Of a DNA stretch of 32,530 bases, positions 9,317 through 15,544 are shown in pieces. Within the stretch, counting starts at the first letter, position 1; every line of letters begins with the position of its first letter. This stretch comes from Spirochaetaceae bacterium (GTDB taxonomy: Bacteria; Spirochaetota; Spirochaetia; B11-G9). The notes beneath the pieces were generated by a model. It saw nothing but the letters and a program-made list of their open reading frames with translations. It had not been told where the DNA came from and did not search any database. Location of the stretch: positions 1 to 32,530 of the forward strand of contig WGCU01000096.1 in assembly GCA_015493635.1 (NCBI GenBank). Direction: 5' to 3'. The position numbers and the translations under genes were made by a program.

Positions 9317-9837
9317 GGATTTTTACCGCGTTAGCCCTTTCTGCAGAGGGACAGGACTTGCTGTACCGGCAGACTGAACACTTGAGAGAAGTATTTCCCC
9401 GGTTAAAATGGGTAGAAAAAGATTCTCTTCATATTACTCTTGAGTTTATTGGTGAGGTATCTGATAAGGCAGCAGCAGCTGCTGCCGCCCTTGAATCTGC
9501 AGTTCTCGATATACCCTCTTTTACCATTACGGTAAGGGGAAGAGGAACTTTTCCCCGGAAAGGACAGGCACGGGTCGTGTATGCAAGAATCAGGGAAGGG
9601 CATCAGGAATGTAAACGGATCTATTCCGAAGTGTCAGGAAGACGGGAGAGAGAGTACCTTCCTCATATTACCCTTGCGCGGGTACGGAGAGGTGTACGGT
9701 GGCCCTCTTCCGGAGACAACAGATCCGTCCCTTCTGGAACAGTATCTGTTGACCGGGTTGTACTGTTTCAGTCACTTCCGGGGCCTTCAGGTGCCCGTTA
9801 TGTAAAACTGGCTGAAAAAAAGTTAAAAACTTCTTGA
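9313..9837 (+). CDS. thpR: RNA 2',3'-cyclic phosphodiesterase (ThpR/LigT family)
   Basis: A 174-residue member of the 2H phosphoesterase superfamily, the usual length for ThpR. The two catalytic H-x-T motifs are clear: H40-I-T42 in SLHITLEFIGEV and H118-I-T120 in LPHITLARVRRG. Family enzymes hydrolyse 2',3'-cyclic phosphate ends of RNA to 2'-phosphates and can ligate tRNA halves in vitro. The start ATG overlaps the methyltransferase stop (ATGA, 9313-9316), so the two are translationally coupled, although no functional link is obvious. The stop codon lies inside the -35 box of the leucine leader promoter that follows. Confidence 0.92.
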   Translation: MRIFTALALSAEGQDLLYRQTEHLREVFPRLKWVEKDSLHITLEFIGEVSDKAAAAAAALESAVLDIPSFTITVRGRGTFPRKGQARVVYARIREGHQECKRIYSEVSGRREREYLPHITLARVRRGVRWPSSGDNRSVPSGTVSVDRVVLFQSLPGPSGARYVKLAEKKLKTS

Positions 9838-9862
9838 CTCATTTCCCCTGAACGGATACAGT
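9834..9862 (+). promoter_or_regulatory. Sigma-70 promoter of the leucine leader and leuA
   Basis: TTGACT (9834-9839) and TACAGT (9857-9862) are 17 bases apart. Transcription should begin near 9868-9870, two to four bases before the leader-peptide ATG at 9872. The -35 overlaps the thpR stop codon. Confidence 0.65.
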
Positions 9863-9871
9863 CAGTGCAGA

Positions 9872-9964
9872 ATGAACGGTAAAGCATTGAAACTAAACCT
9901 GCTCCTATCTCTGCTACTATCTTTTAAAAAGAAAGAAGCCTGTGGTGCGGGTTTACATCGATGA
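9872..9964 (+). CDS. leuL: Leucine leader peptide (attenuation control of leuA)
   Basis: A 30-codon reading frame, too short for routine gene calling, with nine leucines. Eight fall between codons 6 and 16 in LKLNLLLSLLL, and four of them use CTA (codons 8, 12, 15, 16). A basic FKKK stretch follows and the frame ends with TGA at 9962-9964. Leu codons placed before an intrinsic terminator and leuA are the classic layout for ribosome-mediated attenuation: shortage of charged tRNA-Leu stalls the ribosome and prevents terminator formation. There is no Shine-Dalgarno sequence, and the predicted transcription start is only a few bases upstream, so the leader may be translated from a leaderless transcript. 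The role is inferred from layout and composition. Confidence 0.8.
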   Translation: MNGKALKLNLLLSLLLSFKKKEACGAGLHR

Positions 9965-9971
9965 TGTAAAC
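9951..9971 (+). promoter_or_regulatory. Hairpin over the leader-peptide stop codon
   Basis: GTTTACAT (9951-9958) and ATGTAAAC (9964-9971) form a perfect 8-bp stem around the TGA of the leader peptide. A ribosome finishing the leader would melt it; a ribosome stalled at the Leu codons would leave it free. Its 3' arm can also pair partly with the loop region of the terminator (TTTAC), so it may be part of the switch. The exact antiterminator fold is unresolved. Confidence 0.55.
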
Positions 9972-9990
9972 ATAACGTCGTATAAAACGA

Positions 9991-10019
9991 GCCATGGGTT
10001 TTTACCCATGGCTTTTTTT
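9991..10019 (+). terminator. Attenuator terminator before leuA
   Basis: GCCATGGGT (9991-9999) pairs perfectly with ACCCATGGC (10004-10012) across a TTTT loop, followed directly by seven T (10013-10019). It lies 41 bases before the leuA start and 26 bases after the leader stop codon. Confidence 0.9.
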
Positions 10020-10059: not shown

Positions 10060-11748
10060 ATGAAAAAGATGAATTTTAAAAGTTACGTACCAGCCCCTGC
10101 AGTAGAACTTGAGTCCAGGGACTGGCCTGATAAAAGAATCACTAAGGCTCCCTACTGGTGCAGTGTTGATCTCCGGGACGGAAACCAGGCACTGGATATC
10201 CCCATGAACCCTGAGCAGAAGAAGGAAATGTTTCTTCTGCTTTGTGATATTGGTTTTAAAGAGATAGAGGTGGGATTTCCGTCCGCTTCCCAGACAGATT
10301 TTGATTTCCTGCGTGTTCTTATAGATGAAAAGCTCATCCCGGATGATGTAACCATCCAGGTTTTAACCCAGGCCCGGGAGCATCTTATACGGAGAACCTT
10401 TGAGGCTCTTGACGGAGTAAAAAATGCCATTGTGCACATGTACAATTCGGTTTCAGTTCTCCAGCGGGATGTTGTCTTTAATATGAGCAAGGCTGAAATT
10501 ACGAAGATAGCGGTGGATGGAGCATCTCTTGTAAAGAAAATAAGTGATGAAATCAATAATCCGGGGATACGGTTTGAGTACTCCCCTGAAAGTTTTACCG
10601 GGACCGAACTGGATTATGCCCTGGAAGTAAGCCACCGGGTAATGGATATTTTCCAGCCGACGAAGGAAAAGAAACTGATTCTTAATCTTCCCGCTACTGT
10701 TGAAATGTCTACACCGAATATCTATGCGGATCAAATTGAATGGTTCTGTAAACATGTTAGAAACCGGGATACCGTGCTCATCAGTCTTCATGCCCATAAT
10801 GACAGGGGAACAGCGGTGGCAGCCAGTGAACTTGCCGTTATGGCAGGGGCTGACCGGGTGGAAGGAACTCTTTTTGGAAATGGTGAACGGACAGGGAACA
10901 TGGATATCGTTACGATGGCTCTTAATCTTTTTAGTCAGGGGGTTGATCCTGAACTTGATTTTTCTGATATTGACCATGTAAAAAAGGTTTATACTGCAGC
11001 AACAGGTATGAGTGTTCATCCCCGGCATCCCTATGCGGGAGAGCTTGTGTATACTGCGTTCTCCGGGTCTCATCAGGATGCTATCAACAAAGGCCTTAAA
11101 AAGAGGAAAGAACGCAGAGATACGATCTGGGGCGTACCGTATCTTCCCATCAATCCGGAAGATGTGGGGAGAACCTATCAATCCATTATCAGAATTAATA
11201 GTCAGTCCGGAAAGGGTGGTGTTGCGTATATTATGGCAAATGACTATGGATACAATCTGCCGAAGAAAATGCATCCTGAGTTTGGAAAGATAATTCAGAG
11301 AGTTACGGAAAAGCTTGGTTCTGAAATTTCTTCCCGAAAGATATGGGAGATTTTTCAGGAAGAATACCTAAAAAGGCAAACTCCTTACGAGTTGAAACAC
11401 ATAAAAATACTTATGGATGCAGATAGTGCTCATGCTGCATCAGAAGGGCTGACGACCGTTGAGGGGATACTACGGTATGGCGTGAAAGATATGGAGATAT
11501 CAATGAAAGGGAATGGACCGATTGATGCATTTTTAAAAGGAATAAATGCTGTAATCTCAAGTCCTGTTACATTAACCAGCTACAGTGAGCATGATATGGC
11601 GGGAGGATCGGACTCCACTGCGGTTTCCTACATCAGTTTGAAAAACAAAGACGGAATGGAGTGTTATGGTGTCGGAACCGATTCAAATATTTCCATGGCG
11701 TCCATAAAAGCGGTGGTGAGTGCGTTGAACAGGCTGGAAGTTGGGTAA
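10060..11748 (+). CDS. leuA: 2-isopropylmalate synthase, long (WPDKRI-type) form
   Basis: A 562-residue enzyme of the DRE-TIM (HMGL-like) family that condenses acetyl-CoA with 2-oxoisovalerate, the first committed step of leucine synthesis. SVDLRDGNQAL at 35-45 contains the catalytic R39-D40. H244 and H246 of HAHND are the metal ligands, and LFGNGERTGNMD is conserved. The N-terminal WPDKRI and PYWCSVDLRDGNQA mark the long LeuA form known from actinobacteria and others. The last 120 or so residues form the LeuA regulatory domain, which gives leucine feedback inhibition in the family. The AAAGGAG ribosome site is strong. Upstream lies a complete attenuator with a Leu-rich leader, so leucine probably controls both expression and activity. 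The XRE-cupin-acyltransferase gene follows after 43 bases. Confidence 0.95.
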   Translation: MKKMNFKSYVPAPAVELESRDWPDKRITKAPYWCSVDLRDGNQALDIPMNPEQKKEMFLLLCDIGFKEIEVGFPSASQTDFDFLRVLIDEKLIPDDVTIQVLTQAREHLIRRTFEALDGVKNAIVHMYNSVSVLQRDVVFNMSKAEITKIAVDGASLVKKISDEINNPGIRFEYSPESFTGTELDYALEVSHRVMDIFQPTKEKKLILNLPATVEMSTPNIYADQIEWFCKHVRNRDTVLISLHAHNDRGTAVAASELAVMAGADRVEGTLFGNGERTGNMDIVTMALNLFSQGVDPELDFSDIDHVKKVYTAATGMSVHPRHPYAGELVYTAFSGSHQDAINKGLKKRKERRDTIWGVPYLPINPEDVGRTYQSIIRINSQSGKGGVAYIMANDYGYNLPKKMHPEFGKIIQRVTEKLGSEISSRKIWEIFQEEYLKRQTPYELKHIKILMDADSAHAASEGLTTVEGILRYGVKDMEISMKGNGPIDAFLKGINAVISSPVTLTSYSEHDMAGGSDSTAVSYISLKNKDGMECYGVGTDSNISMASIKAVVSALNRLEVG

Positions 11749-11791
11749 AAAATGGAATATAATCGGATAGAGTAGTATCCGGAGGTACACA

Positions 11792-13264
11792 ATGCATACA
11801 GGCGACAACATACTGAAGATAAGAGCAGACAAGAATCTGACCCGAAAAGAGCTTGCTTCTGCTATAAACAGGGACGAAGCGTTTCTTACCGATGTGGAGG
11901 AGCGGGGGATAGAACCCTCTGTTTCCGATCTTCTCAAAATTGCAGATGTCCTTGATACAGATATTTCAGCGCTTATCTACGGTAAAGAGTTTCACAAAAA
12001 GGGTGTTGTTTTAACAAAAGCAGATTCACGGGTACGGATAGACAGGCGGAAGAGTTTTGATTACGAAAATCTTGCCCCTTACTACAGCGGACGGCACATC
12101 GAGCCCCTTTTAGTTGAAGTGTACAGCGGGAAATCCCTTGAATACAGTGTGCACAAGGGGGAAGAGTTCCATTATGTTATGGAGGGAACCTTAAAAATAA
12201 TTATTAACGAAAAGGAATATATTCTTGAGGAAGGGGATTCTATCTATTTTGATTCATCTTTCCCTCATGCTCTTACAGCAGTAGGGGAAAAGGCAAAAAT
12301 TCTTGCCGCGATATATAACAGTGAATCGATGGTTCATCTTTCCCGAAGTAAAAAAATGACCGACTTGATACAGGGCGCAAAACATCTGGGAGGGATGAAT
12401 CTTGTTATTGTTATTCCAAATGAAACTGCTGTTGAAGCAGCCAATATGGCCATAAAGGAAGATGTTGTTAAAAAAGCTTTTCTTATTGGAGACCCTGACG
12501 ATCTTCCAAAGGAATGGGCCGCGCATCGTGATGTCTATGAAATTGTAGAAATTAAAAAAAATGTTGATAACTACGATGCACTGTGTGCCGGGAAAGGTGT
12601 TGAATATATAAAAACCAGTAAGGGTGATATGCTTATGAAAGGGAATATAAATACGGCTGTCTATATGAGAGCCATCCTGAATAAGCAGTCAGGGATCGGT
12701 ACCGGCCGCCGGCTGTCCATGGTAAGCATGTTTGAAATTCCGAAACTGAACCGTTTTATATTCCTGACAGATCCCGGGATAAATCCTGAGCTGACAATAG
12801 CAAATGATATTGACACATCGCGGGATATCATTCTGAATGCCATAGATGTGGCGAAAAGCATGGGTGTAACGCACCCGAATGTTGCTATTCTTGATGCAAA
12901 CGAAAAACCTTCGGAGAAGATCCCTACGTCCATTTTTGCCCGGGAACTGTCAAAGATGGATTGGGGTGATGCAACGGTCTATGGCCCTCTTTCGTACGAC
13001 CTTGCGCTGTATGAAGAATCAGTCAAACATAAAGGTCTGACAAACCTTCCGGTGGCAGGGAAAGCGGATATCCTTATTGTTCCCCATCTTGCCGGGGGAA
13101 ACTTTCTTTACAAAGCCTGGGCCATGACGATGTCCGCTGATGTTGCCAACGTTGTTCTTGGAGCAAATGCTCCTATCATTATAACTTCCCGGAGCGACAG
13201 CGACATGACGAAATTTCTTACCCTCTGTGCCAGCGCTGTATACAGCAAGTATCTGCAGAAATAG
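11792..13264 (+). CDS. XRE helix-turn-helix, cupin and phosphate acyltransferase fusion protein
   Basis: A 490-residue protein made of three recognisable parts. Residues 5-62 are an XRE/Cro-type helix-turn-helix (LTRKELASAINRDEAFLTDVEE). Residues about 95-180 are a cupin barrel with HKGEEFHYVMEG (121-132) and a second motif ending FPHALTA. Residues about 190-490 are a PTA_PTB domain like phosphate butyryltransferase: GDMLMKGNINTA, VAILDANEKP, YGPLSYDLAL and the final ADILIVPHLAGGNFLYK plus IIITSRSDS. PTB enzymes interconvert acyl-CoA and acyl phosphate. XRE-cupin proteins alone are common regulators, but fusion to a full-length acyltransferase is unusual to me. The start has a GGAGGT site, with a small 6-bp hairpin just before it (11764-11781). 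The gene probably shares the leuA transcript. It may be a regulator that senses a branched acyl-CoA or acyl phosphate. Confidence 0.85.
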   Translation: MHTGDNILKIRADKNLTRKELASAINRDEAFLTDVEERGIEPSVSDLLKIADVLDTDISALIYGKEFHKKGVVLTKADSRVRIDRRKSFDYENLAPYYSGRHIEPLLVEVYSGKSLEYSVHKGEEFHYVMEGTLKIIINEKEYILEEGDSIYFDSSFPHALTAVGEKAKILAAIYNSESMVHLSRSKKMTDLIQGAKHLGGMNLVIVIPNETAVEAANMAIKEDVVKKAFLIGDPDDLPKEWAAHRDVYEIVEIKKNVDNYDALCAGKGVEYIKTSKGDMLMKGNINTAVYMRAILNKQSGIGTGRRLSMVSMFEIPKLNRFIFLTDPGINPELTIANDIDTSRDIILNAIDVAKSMGVTHPNVAILDANEKPSEKIPTSIFARELSKMDWGDATVYGPLSYDLALYEESVKHKGLTNLPVAGKADILIVPHLAGGNFLYKAWAMTMSADVANVVLGANAPIIITSRSDSDMTKFLTLCASAVYSKYLQK

Positions 13265-13267
13265 CAG

Positions 13268-15544
13268 TTAATCTTCGGTAAGTTTTATGTGCCGGGCACT
13301 CCTGACAAAGAGAGTGGGGGGAAGGTTATCATACTGTTTTATTTCTTTTGTAAAGAAGAACTCGTTCAGTTTAAAGAGAGTCCTTTTCTGTTTCTCAATA
13401 TAATTCCCCGGGAGACCCATCATGATAAGACTTGCATTTCCCGATATTTCTTCAAGAGTCTCTGTAAAAGGTGTATCATCGAAGGGGAGAATCATTATTT
13501 CACCAGTTAAGCGGGCCTTATTAAGAAGAGATGTTATCTCAAACCGTGTTGTTTCAATATCTTCTTCCTGCTGGAGTTTTCTGATTATCCGTACAGTATA
13601 GGGAGGGAAACCTTCATCAATGAGGGATCTGTTCATGATATACGCAAGCAGTACCATAAGGTTCCCGTTTCGTTCTCCCCTCCACCAGATATCCAGGCGT
13701 TCCCGTCTCTTTAGTTTCTCTCCGCCGTTGAAAAGCAGGATATCCTTTCCCATGGAGAGAATTTTATCAAGAATGGAAACATTATCAATTTTATTGTTGT
13801 ATTCAAGAAGAATGGTGTTTGGATTAATTCCAACAGGATTGGATGTCTGAAGGAGACTGATGATGGTTTTGGAAAAGTCCGCAGCATGAATAACTGCCGA
13901 GGGTATTTTAAGTATTCCGGTATCGGGAGGAAGCTCCTCCTCTTTTTCCCGGGGAGGAGCGGAGAGAATGTTCAAGTTCGCCCAGCCTTGATAGGTTGCT
14001 ATTCTTTCGGCTATAAGGGCCGTCTGGGACCATGCACCTGAACGGTACGCGTACACACTGATAATGGGTCTCCAGTTTCTGGAATCCAGAGCAATTGTTT
14101 TCAGTCTTGCGAGAGCACGGGTAATAAGGGTGAAAAAGAAGCCCCACCATACACCTTCCAGTTTTCCTTCCGATTTGTACTTGAGTATGAGCCGGAAGAT
14201 GAGATACTGGCTTACAAAGACAAAGAGGCCTATTCTCCAGTCAAACATGGTAATGATGGCAATGCAGGCGGCAAAGCCGTACAGAGATATAAGCCAGTGT
14301 CCCCGGAACGTCGGTCTGAATGTCGGGTTTCTACTGACCCGCTCCAAAAATGCAGCTCCGTTGACCCAGCCGTACACAACAAGGAACAAAATACCGACAA
14401 CGATGGCGGCAAAGCTGATATCTCCCATCCATATAATGACAAGTCCGACAAAGAAGGTAACAAGAACAGCATAACGGGGTTCATTTCCTCCTCTTTTAAA
14501 ATCGTACTGGAGGAAAGAGAACATTTTTGGAAGAATACCGTCTTTAGCGAGGTACTGCGCGGTCCGGGGACCGGTCATAAAAACACTGAGAGCGGAAGAT
14601 GCCGTTGCGAAAAGAACTCCAAGCAGAATAAGTATACCGGGTAGGTTCCAGGGGAACGGTTTGCCGAGGCCGAACAGTTCTGTCAGTATTACTCCGAAAG
14701 GAACATTATTCCGGTATCCGGAAATAAGGACATTTTTATCAATAAAAGAGAACAGCACAGCAATACCGATGTAGATAAACAGGGTAACAAAGATTGCAGA
14801 GAAGGTACCTTTGACAATACTTTTTTTCGGTTCTTTTAGGTCTCCGCTCATTCCAACTCCGGTACTTATTCCCGTTACCGCGGGGAAAAACTGGGTAAAT
14901 GTCAGAAAGAAAATTCCCAGGGTAAGGGGCCTGTTCCCCAGAAGGTTAAAAGAGCTGGTGAAAACTTTGGCTCCATGATAGTCCATGGGGATAAGGGGGG
15001 AGGCAAAGATGGTTATAATACTTAAAAACAGTATGACAAGAATGAGGCTCTGAAGCTTAAGAGTAAAATCAGCACCTATCATGACAATAATAAAAAAGAG
15101 CAGATAAAACGCTGTTGCTATCAGCTGTTTCTGTAGAAGTACCGCCTGGGGCGTTGTACCGGTAAAAAGTGGAAACATCTGCAGGTGGGGGACGATGAGT
15201 GCCCGTAAAGGTGCCGCAAAACCAATGGCGTAAAATCCTATGGATGCTGCCTGGGCAAGATAGAGCTGTATACCGATAGATCCTCCCATGGCATTGCCGA
15301 GGGACCGCTTGGAGAGGGCATACATTCCTCCGCCCTCTATCCTGTTCAGGTTTGTCGCACAGTCTGACAGGGAAAATGCAGTTGCAATTGTTACCGTATG
15401 GGCCAGAAGTATGACAACAAGCATGGGAATAAATCCCACATCCGCAGTCAATAAAGGCATGAGCAGAAATAAAACTGTACCGAGAATAGCTTCTGTTGAA
15501 GGGATAAAAACCCCTTTAAAGGTTCCGAATTTTTTTGTTTCCAT
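13268..15544 (-). CDS. SLC12-like (cation-chloride cotransporter family) APC transporter
   Basis: A 758-residue protein. Residues about 10-465 hold roughly 12 membrane segments of the amino acid/polyamine/organocation fold; the start GVFIPSTEAILGTVLF and the EGGGMYALSKRSLG motif near 69-82 are typical. The remaining 290 residues are soluble and begin with RNWRPIISVYA (from 489), the signature opening of the C-terminal domain of SLC12 cation-chloride cotransporters. It most resembles the prokaryotic CCC homologues, which are longer than ordinary amino acid permeases. Transport of K+, Na+ and Cl- or of amino acids are both possible. It lies 13 bases after the START-like gene on the same strand, so they form one operon. 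The ribosome site (AGGATG, 11 bases away) is weak. Confidence 0.85.
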   Translation of the reverse strand: METKKFGTFKGVFIPSTEAILGTVLFLLMPLLTADVGFIPMLVVILLAHTVTIATAFSLSDCATNLNRIEGGGMYALSKRSLGNAMGGSIGIQLYLAQAASIGFYAIGFAAPLRALIVPHLQMFPLFTGTTPQAVLLQKQLIATAFYLLFFIIVMIGADFTLKLQSLILVILFLSIITIFASPLIPMDYHGAKVFTSSFNLLGNRPLTLGIFFLTFTQFFPAVTGISTGVGMSGDLKEPKKSIVKGTFSAIFVTLFIYIGIAVLFSFIDKNVLISGYRNNVPFGVILTELFGLGKPFPWNLPGILILLGVLFATASSALSVFMTGPRTAQYLAKDGILPKMFSFLQYDFKRGGNEPRYAVLVTFFVGLVIIWMGDISFAAIVVGILFLVVYGWVNGAAFLERVSRNPTFRPTFRGHWLISLYGFAACIAIITMFDWRIGLFVFVSQYLIFRLILKYKSEGKLEGVWWGFFFTLITRALARLKTIALDSRNWRPIISVYAYRSGAWSQTALIAERIATYQGWANLNILSAPPREKEEELPPDTGILKIPSAVIHAADFSKTIISLLQTSNPVGINPNTILLEYNNKIDNVSILDKILSMGKDILLFNGGEKLKRRERLDIWWRGERNGNLMVLLAYIMNRSLIDEGFPPYTVRIIRKLQQEEDIETTRFEITSLLNKARLTGEIMILPFDDTPFTETLEEISGNASLIMMGLPGNYIEKQKRTLFKLNEFFFTKEIKQYDNLPPTLFVRSARHIKLTED

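Follow-up and report, generated by a model that had tools for sequence, protein, structure and literature searches.

A phosphate butyryltransferase-type domain joined to an XRE-cupin module in Spirochaetia: a candidate regulator-enzyme

The fusion protein and its closest described systems

XRE-cupin proteins act, as shown experimentally in Pseudomonas, as local repressors of adjacent metabolic genes, and the described factors (ErfA, PsdR, PauR and PuuR) consist of an N-terminal HTH_3 domain and a cupin, after which the chain ends (PMC7901475). Regulator-enzyme fusions are also already known. BzdR joins an XRE domain to a shikimate-kinase-like benzoyl-CoA sensor that has lost its enzymatic activity (PMC3602430), and in the hybrid malic enzyme MaeB a PTA domain, reported to be without critical catalytic residues, serves as an acetyl-CoA sensor that controls an enzyme and not DNA (PMC7902834). 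The bifunctional enoyl-CoA hydratase/phosphate acetyltransferase PRK08190 carries a C-terminal domain of the phosphate butyryltransferase (PTB) type behind a hydratase. We know of no phosphotransacylase that is fused to a DNA-binding sensor. A literature search, in which subscription journals were mostly uncovered, likewise found no paper joining a cupin with a phosphotransbutyrylase, in agreement with the initial annotation, whose author knew of no described example.

In the window, by which we mean the whole 32,530-nucleotide stretch of DNA analysed, an uninterrupted frame on the + strand (11792..13264, ATG start, TAG stop) encodes a protein of 490 amino acids with orthologues in 16 genomes. 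Judged against the curated Pfam cut-offs, it contains an HTH_3/XRE DNA-binding domain (PF01381, residues 8–59, 11813..11968) that scores 25.9 bits and thus barely exceeds its cut-off of 23, a Cupin_2 domain (PF07883, residues 107–171, 12110..12304) with 53.3 bits, also above cut-off, and a PTA_PTB domain (PF01515, residues 245–475) with 93.8 bits versus a cut-off of 24. The three domains that had been proposed from the letters of this frame are therefore recovered by profile search, the third of them indeed as PTA_PTB. NCBIfam places the C-terminal ~300 amino acids (residues ~187–486, 12350..13249) into the phosphate-butyryltransferase branch, with NF004472 as the best match (residues 187–486, 212.9 bits, under its 399-bit cut-off); the equivalog cut-off of TIGR02706 is likewise missed (205.2 versus 410.5 bits).

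The PDB sequence match of the window protein is the PTB of C. acetobutylicum (7vg9, E 3e-47). An AlphaFold model calculated with an alignment of 56 related rows reached a mean pLDDT of 87.9 (57.5 with 11 rows) and displays five helices in the HTH region and beta strands in the cupin region. Its best solved match in Foldseek is again 7vg9, with a TM-score of 0.89 by target length. The domain had been correctly described as a complete acyltransferase domain, with the conserved residues discussed below retained. The viral fold library returned generic cupin matches only. The model is also matched by HppE, an XRE-cupin-like epoxidase, and by sequence this match is to the N-terminal half. A putative metal triad of the cupin, H121-x3-E125...H159 (12152..12268), is invariant in 11 aligned fusions and aligns to the H...E...H of HppE (1zz6/4j1x), positions that we take to be the iron ligands of HppE. 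It is plausible that the cupin binds a metal or a small ligand.

When compared to the described systems, the protein shares with the XRE-cupin factors its N-terminal HTH_3 domain, its cupin and the adjacent metabolic genes, PuuR being the best regulator match (NF007408, 40.5 bits), but it adds the complete ~300-amino-acid acyltransferase. With the PTBs of C. acetobutylicum, Listeria (Lmo1369, 3u9e) and E. faecalis (1yco) it has in common the fold, ~33% identity, the conserved residues and a genomic pairing with butyrate kinase, whereas its own PTB domain stands behind a regulator, belongs to a separate clade, carries fusion-specific residues and scores under the equivalog cut-offs. It would work like BzdR in that an XRE domain is joined to an enzyme-derived domain reading a CoA thioester; however, the enzyme family is another one and BzdR possesses no cupin. 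It is no member of the BzdR group, and its NCBIfam match to PRK08154 covers the HTH only (residues 4–69), with no shikimate-kinase-like C-terminal domain in the window protein. Similarly, it resembles MaeB in that a domain of the PTA/PTB fold is attached to a domain of other function, and is no MaeB member; Pfam finds no malic-enzyme domain in the window protein, and the NF009501 match spans only the PTA residues 321–468. PRK08190 matches the window protein with 200.5 bits, although its N-terminal partner is a hydratase and not a regulator. Judged from the sequence, the fusion adds a third domain to XRE-cupin regulators and a regulator to PTB enzymes.

Distribution and origin of the fusion

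Whole-genome searches detected the three-domain gene in 16 of 395 Spirochaetia genomes from four families, with 52–79% identity and each time as one open frame, one of the 16 beginning at a contig edge without residues 1–39. The fusion is present in each of the eight genomes sampled from the family of the window, and the carriers include a single-contig genome of 4,653,970 bp matching Sediminispirochaeta smaragdinae, a cultured host that makes the fusion accessible to testing. These 16 open frames are neither a product of chance nor of an assembly join, and the first of the two outcomes that would have spoken against the initial annotation, a fusion absent from close relatives and due to an assembly error, is thereby ruled out; the second, a third domain other than PTA_PTB, is ruled out by the profile search. 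The census further comprised a single scan with a short pattern across 84,980 species of bacteria and archaea, represented by one genome each, beside the class and phylum samples of ~400 genomes. The scan yielded 11 loci, all in metagenome-assembled genomes of spirochaetes and 61–79% identical, and in the phylum sample three of 393 genomes carried the fusion, all three known from the other searches. Among plasmids, no record covered 80% of the query in a single location.

In a tree of PTB sequences the 16 fusions group as a single clade with an SH-aLRT of 99, whose stem branch is long (1.17), apart from the stand-alone PTBs of the same genomes. In a tree of XRE-cupins the fusions lie on one side of a branch with an SH-aLRT of 93, and the free XRE-cupins nearest to them adjoin genes for AMP-forming acyl-CoA ligases; both trees are quick ones, and the sample of free XRE-cupins is small (n = 13). 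As each half thus forms a single clade, the data fit one fusion event in which both parents would have been linked to acyl-CoA chemistry.

A repeated pairing of regulator and ligase was also seen in two loci where XRE-cupin genes alternate with genes for AMP-forming acyl-CoA ligases (L053:6676–11118 and L054:4966–14147); in L054 this series lies behind genes for subunits of a 2-oxoacid:ferredoxin oxidoreductase. A frame of 749 amino acids with an XRE-cupin in genome G027, considered as another fusion, resolves into a separate XRE-cupin of 188 amino acids beside AMP-ligase genes.

The PTB domain and butyrate kinase

To describe the state of the PTB half, the 16 fusions were compared residue by residue with stand-alone PTBs, 40 rows in all, of which 37 stem from spirochaetes and three from solved structures. 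The fusions retain K283, G284, T288, S309, D327, E371, G398, P399, D403, K414, G423, D426, N437, K441, G457, P461, S466 and R467. The pair S466-R467 (13187..13192) is invariant in fusions and stand-alone PTBs and is, by motif, the equivalent of the catalytic Ser-Arg of phosphotransacetylase, roles that are assigned to S309/R310 in the M. thermophila Pta (PMC10194888). Of the columns with a conservation of 95% or more in stand-alone PTBs, the fusions deviate in no more than two, a proline (position 338) and a lysine (position 343), both of which are loop positions around the start of the helix 340–356. No other part of the fusions is as conserved as the PTB core (residues 261–486), which has a mean pairwise identity of 0.80, and the constraint covers this core entirely. 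In six of six genome pairs the dN of the fused PTB was below that of the stand-alone PTB, for example 0.004 versus 0.027 and 0.031 versus 0.095, the difference being only slight in the pair G005/G007. The fused PTB is under purifying selection.

The genomic neighbourhoods point to acyl-CoA/acyl-phosphate chemistry. In G183, the deepest-branching member, the butyrate kinase gene buk precedes the fusion with a 4-bp overlap and is the only buk found in that genome. A ptb gene lies beside buk in 19 of the 36 stand-alone PTB loci viewed, and it is this place that the fusion occupies in G183. In the Sediminispirochaeta loci L048 and L049, S. smaragdinae included, the genes iorA-iorB-ptb-buk-fusion follow each other closely on one strand, with the fusion last and an Lrp-type gene in divergent orientation. 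The window's genome and G003 possess a stand-alone ptb-buk pair at another place than the fusion. In four further fusion genomes that were viewed (G001, G004 and G007 of the genus g2, and G067), buk lies without an adjoining ptb, the locus retaining its downstream neighbours in G007, G004 and G067. Butyrate kinase scored above cut-off in all 16 fusion genomes versus 22 of 49 relatives without the fusion, counts that are not phylogenetically independent. No gene of acyl metabolism directly adjoins the fusion on the same strand in any of the four genomes that represent family f26.

A separate arrangement was seen in other Spirochaetia, in which a protein of 734–735 amino acids unites a PTA_PTB and an acetate/butyrate-kinase domain (L104:3661–5865 and L105:3801–6008), with G008:C33:4360–5421 as a candidate further locus. 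Such a protein would lead from acyl-CoA to acid and ATP on one chain.

Acyl-CoA and acyl-phosphates are thought to be status signals in fermenting bacteria. We give slightly better than an even chance to the reading that the fusion is a bifunctional regulator-enzyme, a phosphotransacylase and local repressor in which the acyl-CoA/acyl-phosphate state gates DNA binding. The C-terminal PTB would bind an acyl-CoA whose acyl group is short, branched or aryl, and would probably interconvert this acyl-CoA and phosphate with the acyl-phosphate and CoA; the acyl-phosphate would feed a butyrate-kinase-type enzyme and so give ATP. The N-terminal XRE-cupin module would serve as the local repressor, and occupancy of the PTB site by acyl-CoA or acyl-phosphate, and/or of the cupin by a ligand or metal, would alter DNA binding. 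In this manner, flux through the acyl-CoA/acyl-phosphate node would determine how strongly the neighbouring genes, or the fusion gene, are expressed. That the signal is acyl-CoA or acyl-phosphate, as proposed earlier, stays plausible, with both the effector and the binding to DNA being what we infer.

The retained residues, the slow evolution and the pairing with buk argue against the PTB domain being vestigial. From the initial wording of a catalytic or vestigial acyltransferase, the vestigial part is therefore disfavoured and the catalytic part would be the probable one. The main rival, which we regard as rather unlikely, is that the PTB performs no turnover and merely senses a CoA thioester for an XRE-cupin repressor. 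MaeB (PMC7902834) and BzdR (PMC3602430) are precedents for such a sensor, and the long stem of the fusion clade, the fusion-specific substitutions and the scores below the NCBIfam equivalog cut-offs speak in its favour, as does the stand-alone PTB present in every fusion genome, owing to which the fusion is not the sole possible source of acyl-phosphate. Yet the fusions, unlike the PTA of MaeB, retain Ser-Arg and the conserved PTB residues, the constraint extends across the entire PTB core, and the fusion in G183 is paired with the sole buk found there.

The fusion-specific residues are W443, Y402, Y407, W391, N370 and S374, of which the aromatic W443, Y402, Y407 and W391 suggest a different acyl pocket. 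Together with the scores below the equivalog cut-offs, these residues imply that the substrate or even the chemistry may have shifted.

If the enzyme is active, the bifunctional regulator-enzyme would be an example from nature of an enzyme that was taken into a regulator and kept its activity, and flux through the ATP-yielding acyl-phosphate step would directly set gene expression. In some anaerobic spirochaetes, an apparently intact fermentation enzyme and the control of genes may thus share one polypeptide. Somewhat short of even, in our estimate, is the more specific idea of a trigger enzyme, in which the active phosphotransacylase is also the DNA-bound repressor and the very conversion of acyl-CoA into acyl-phosphate acts as a direct transcriptional switch, a state prior to a loss of activity as in BzdR or MaeB.

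The N-terminal half, candidate operators and leuA

An enzyme whose XRE-cupin half exerts no transcription control, but aids assembly or is itself catalytic in the manner of HppE, appears improbable to us. The alignment of this half with HppE and the kept H-x3-E...H triad would agree with such a role, and so would the HTH as one of the less conserved parts (mean pairwise identity 0.57) and the finding that no operator common to the different families was detected, inverted repeats being present but differing between families. However, a variable HTH is what differing operators would give. All three members that were scanned pass the HTH_3 cut-off (with 41.5 bits in G183 and 30.5 bits in the Sediminispirochaeta locus L048, in addition to the window protein), and within the sample this half is most closely related to free XRE-cupin regulators. 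Moreover, a block TTACG..TTTTCGG..TTCTCG upstream of the -10 element is conserved in four f26 genomes. In the window, the intergenic region contains TATAAT (11758–11763) followed by the inverted repeat CGGATAGAGTAGTATCCG (11764–11781; together 11758..11781, + strand), a weak candidate whose repeat differs in relatives and which is possibly the fusion's own promoter/operator or a 5′ hairpin.

The gene leuA, encoding 2-isopropylmalate synthase (10060..11748, + strand), ends 43 bp upstream of the fusion in the window, and the initial annotation had proposed a tie between the two. A role in which the fusion responds to isovaleryl- or isobutyryl-CoA and adjusts leuA is in our view very improbable. 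leuA lies directly before the fusion in the window, in L008 and in L013, which belong to three different genera. These are three of the 15 visible contexts, which are not independent by phylogeny; in the other 12 it does not adjoin, and elsewhere the fusion sits with buk or ends the iorA-iorB-ptb-buk series. leuA as a general stable partner is hence rejected, and the proposed tie is weak. In G004, the sequence ahead of the fusion (L012:7744–8000) is similar to the 3′-terminal codons of leuA (GTGAGTGCTTTGAACCGATTAGTCGCTGGTTGA), an apparent remnant that suggests a deletion of leuA, and in the window's genome another XRE-cupin heads leuC-like and leuD-like genes behind an upstream region rich in inverted repeats (L096:6314–8725). 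Both observations would favour a leucine-pathway regulator, but this XRE-cupin is not the closest free relative of the fusion.

Furthermore, leuA carries its own leader on the + strand, comprising a Leu-rich open reading frame (MNGKALKLNLLLSLLLSFKKKEACGAGLHR, 9872..9964, nine Leu in 30 residues) and an intrinsic terminator (9989..10014) in a region that folds far better than shuffled sequences (z = -5.4). Both L008 (leader at 847–933) and L013 (leader at 1765–1857) likewise show a leader rich in Leu and a hairpin plus T run. The arrangement looks like ribosome-mediated attenuation of leuA by leucine and is a probable leucine attenuator in a spirochaete, so that leuA would not need the fusion for leucine control. 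When leucine is short, read-through from leuA could co-express the fusion. A promoter-like TTGACT-17-TACAGT lies nine nucleotides before the ATG of the leader frame, whose transcript is possibly leaderless, and the terminator follows (region 9834–10014). An Rfam match to preQ1-II over the leuA terminator was weak (28 versus 47 bits) and taken as chance.

The remaining neighbours of the fusion vary by lineage, with a convergent adenylate kinase gene in f26 and, in genus g2, a downstream gene for a PAS/hemerythrin/DUF438 protein. In two genomes the 3′ end of the fusion shares 4 bp with a DUF952 gene, in L011 (8001–9883, assigned by Pfam) and L017 (1–1760, by similarity). In the window, the gene for a protein of 758 amino acids resembling amino-acid permeases and cation-chloride cotransporters (13268–15544) is convergent to the fusion, with 3 bp between them.
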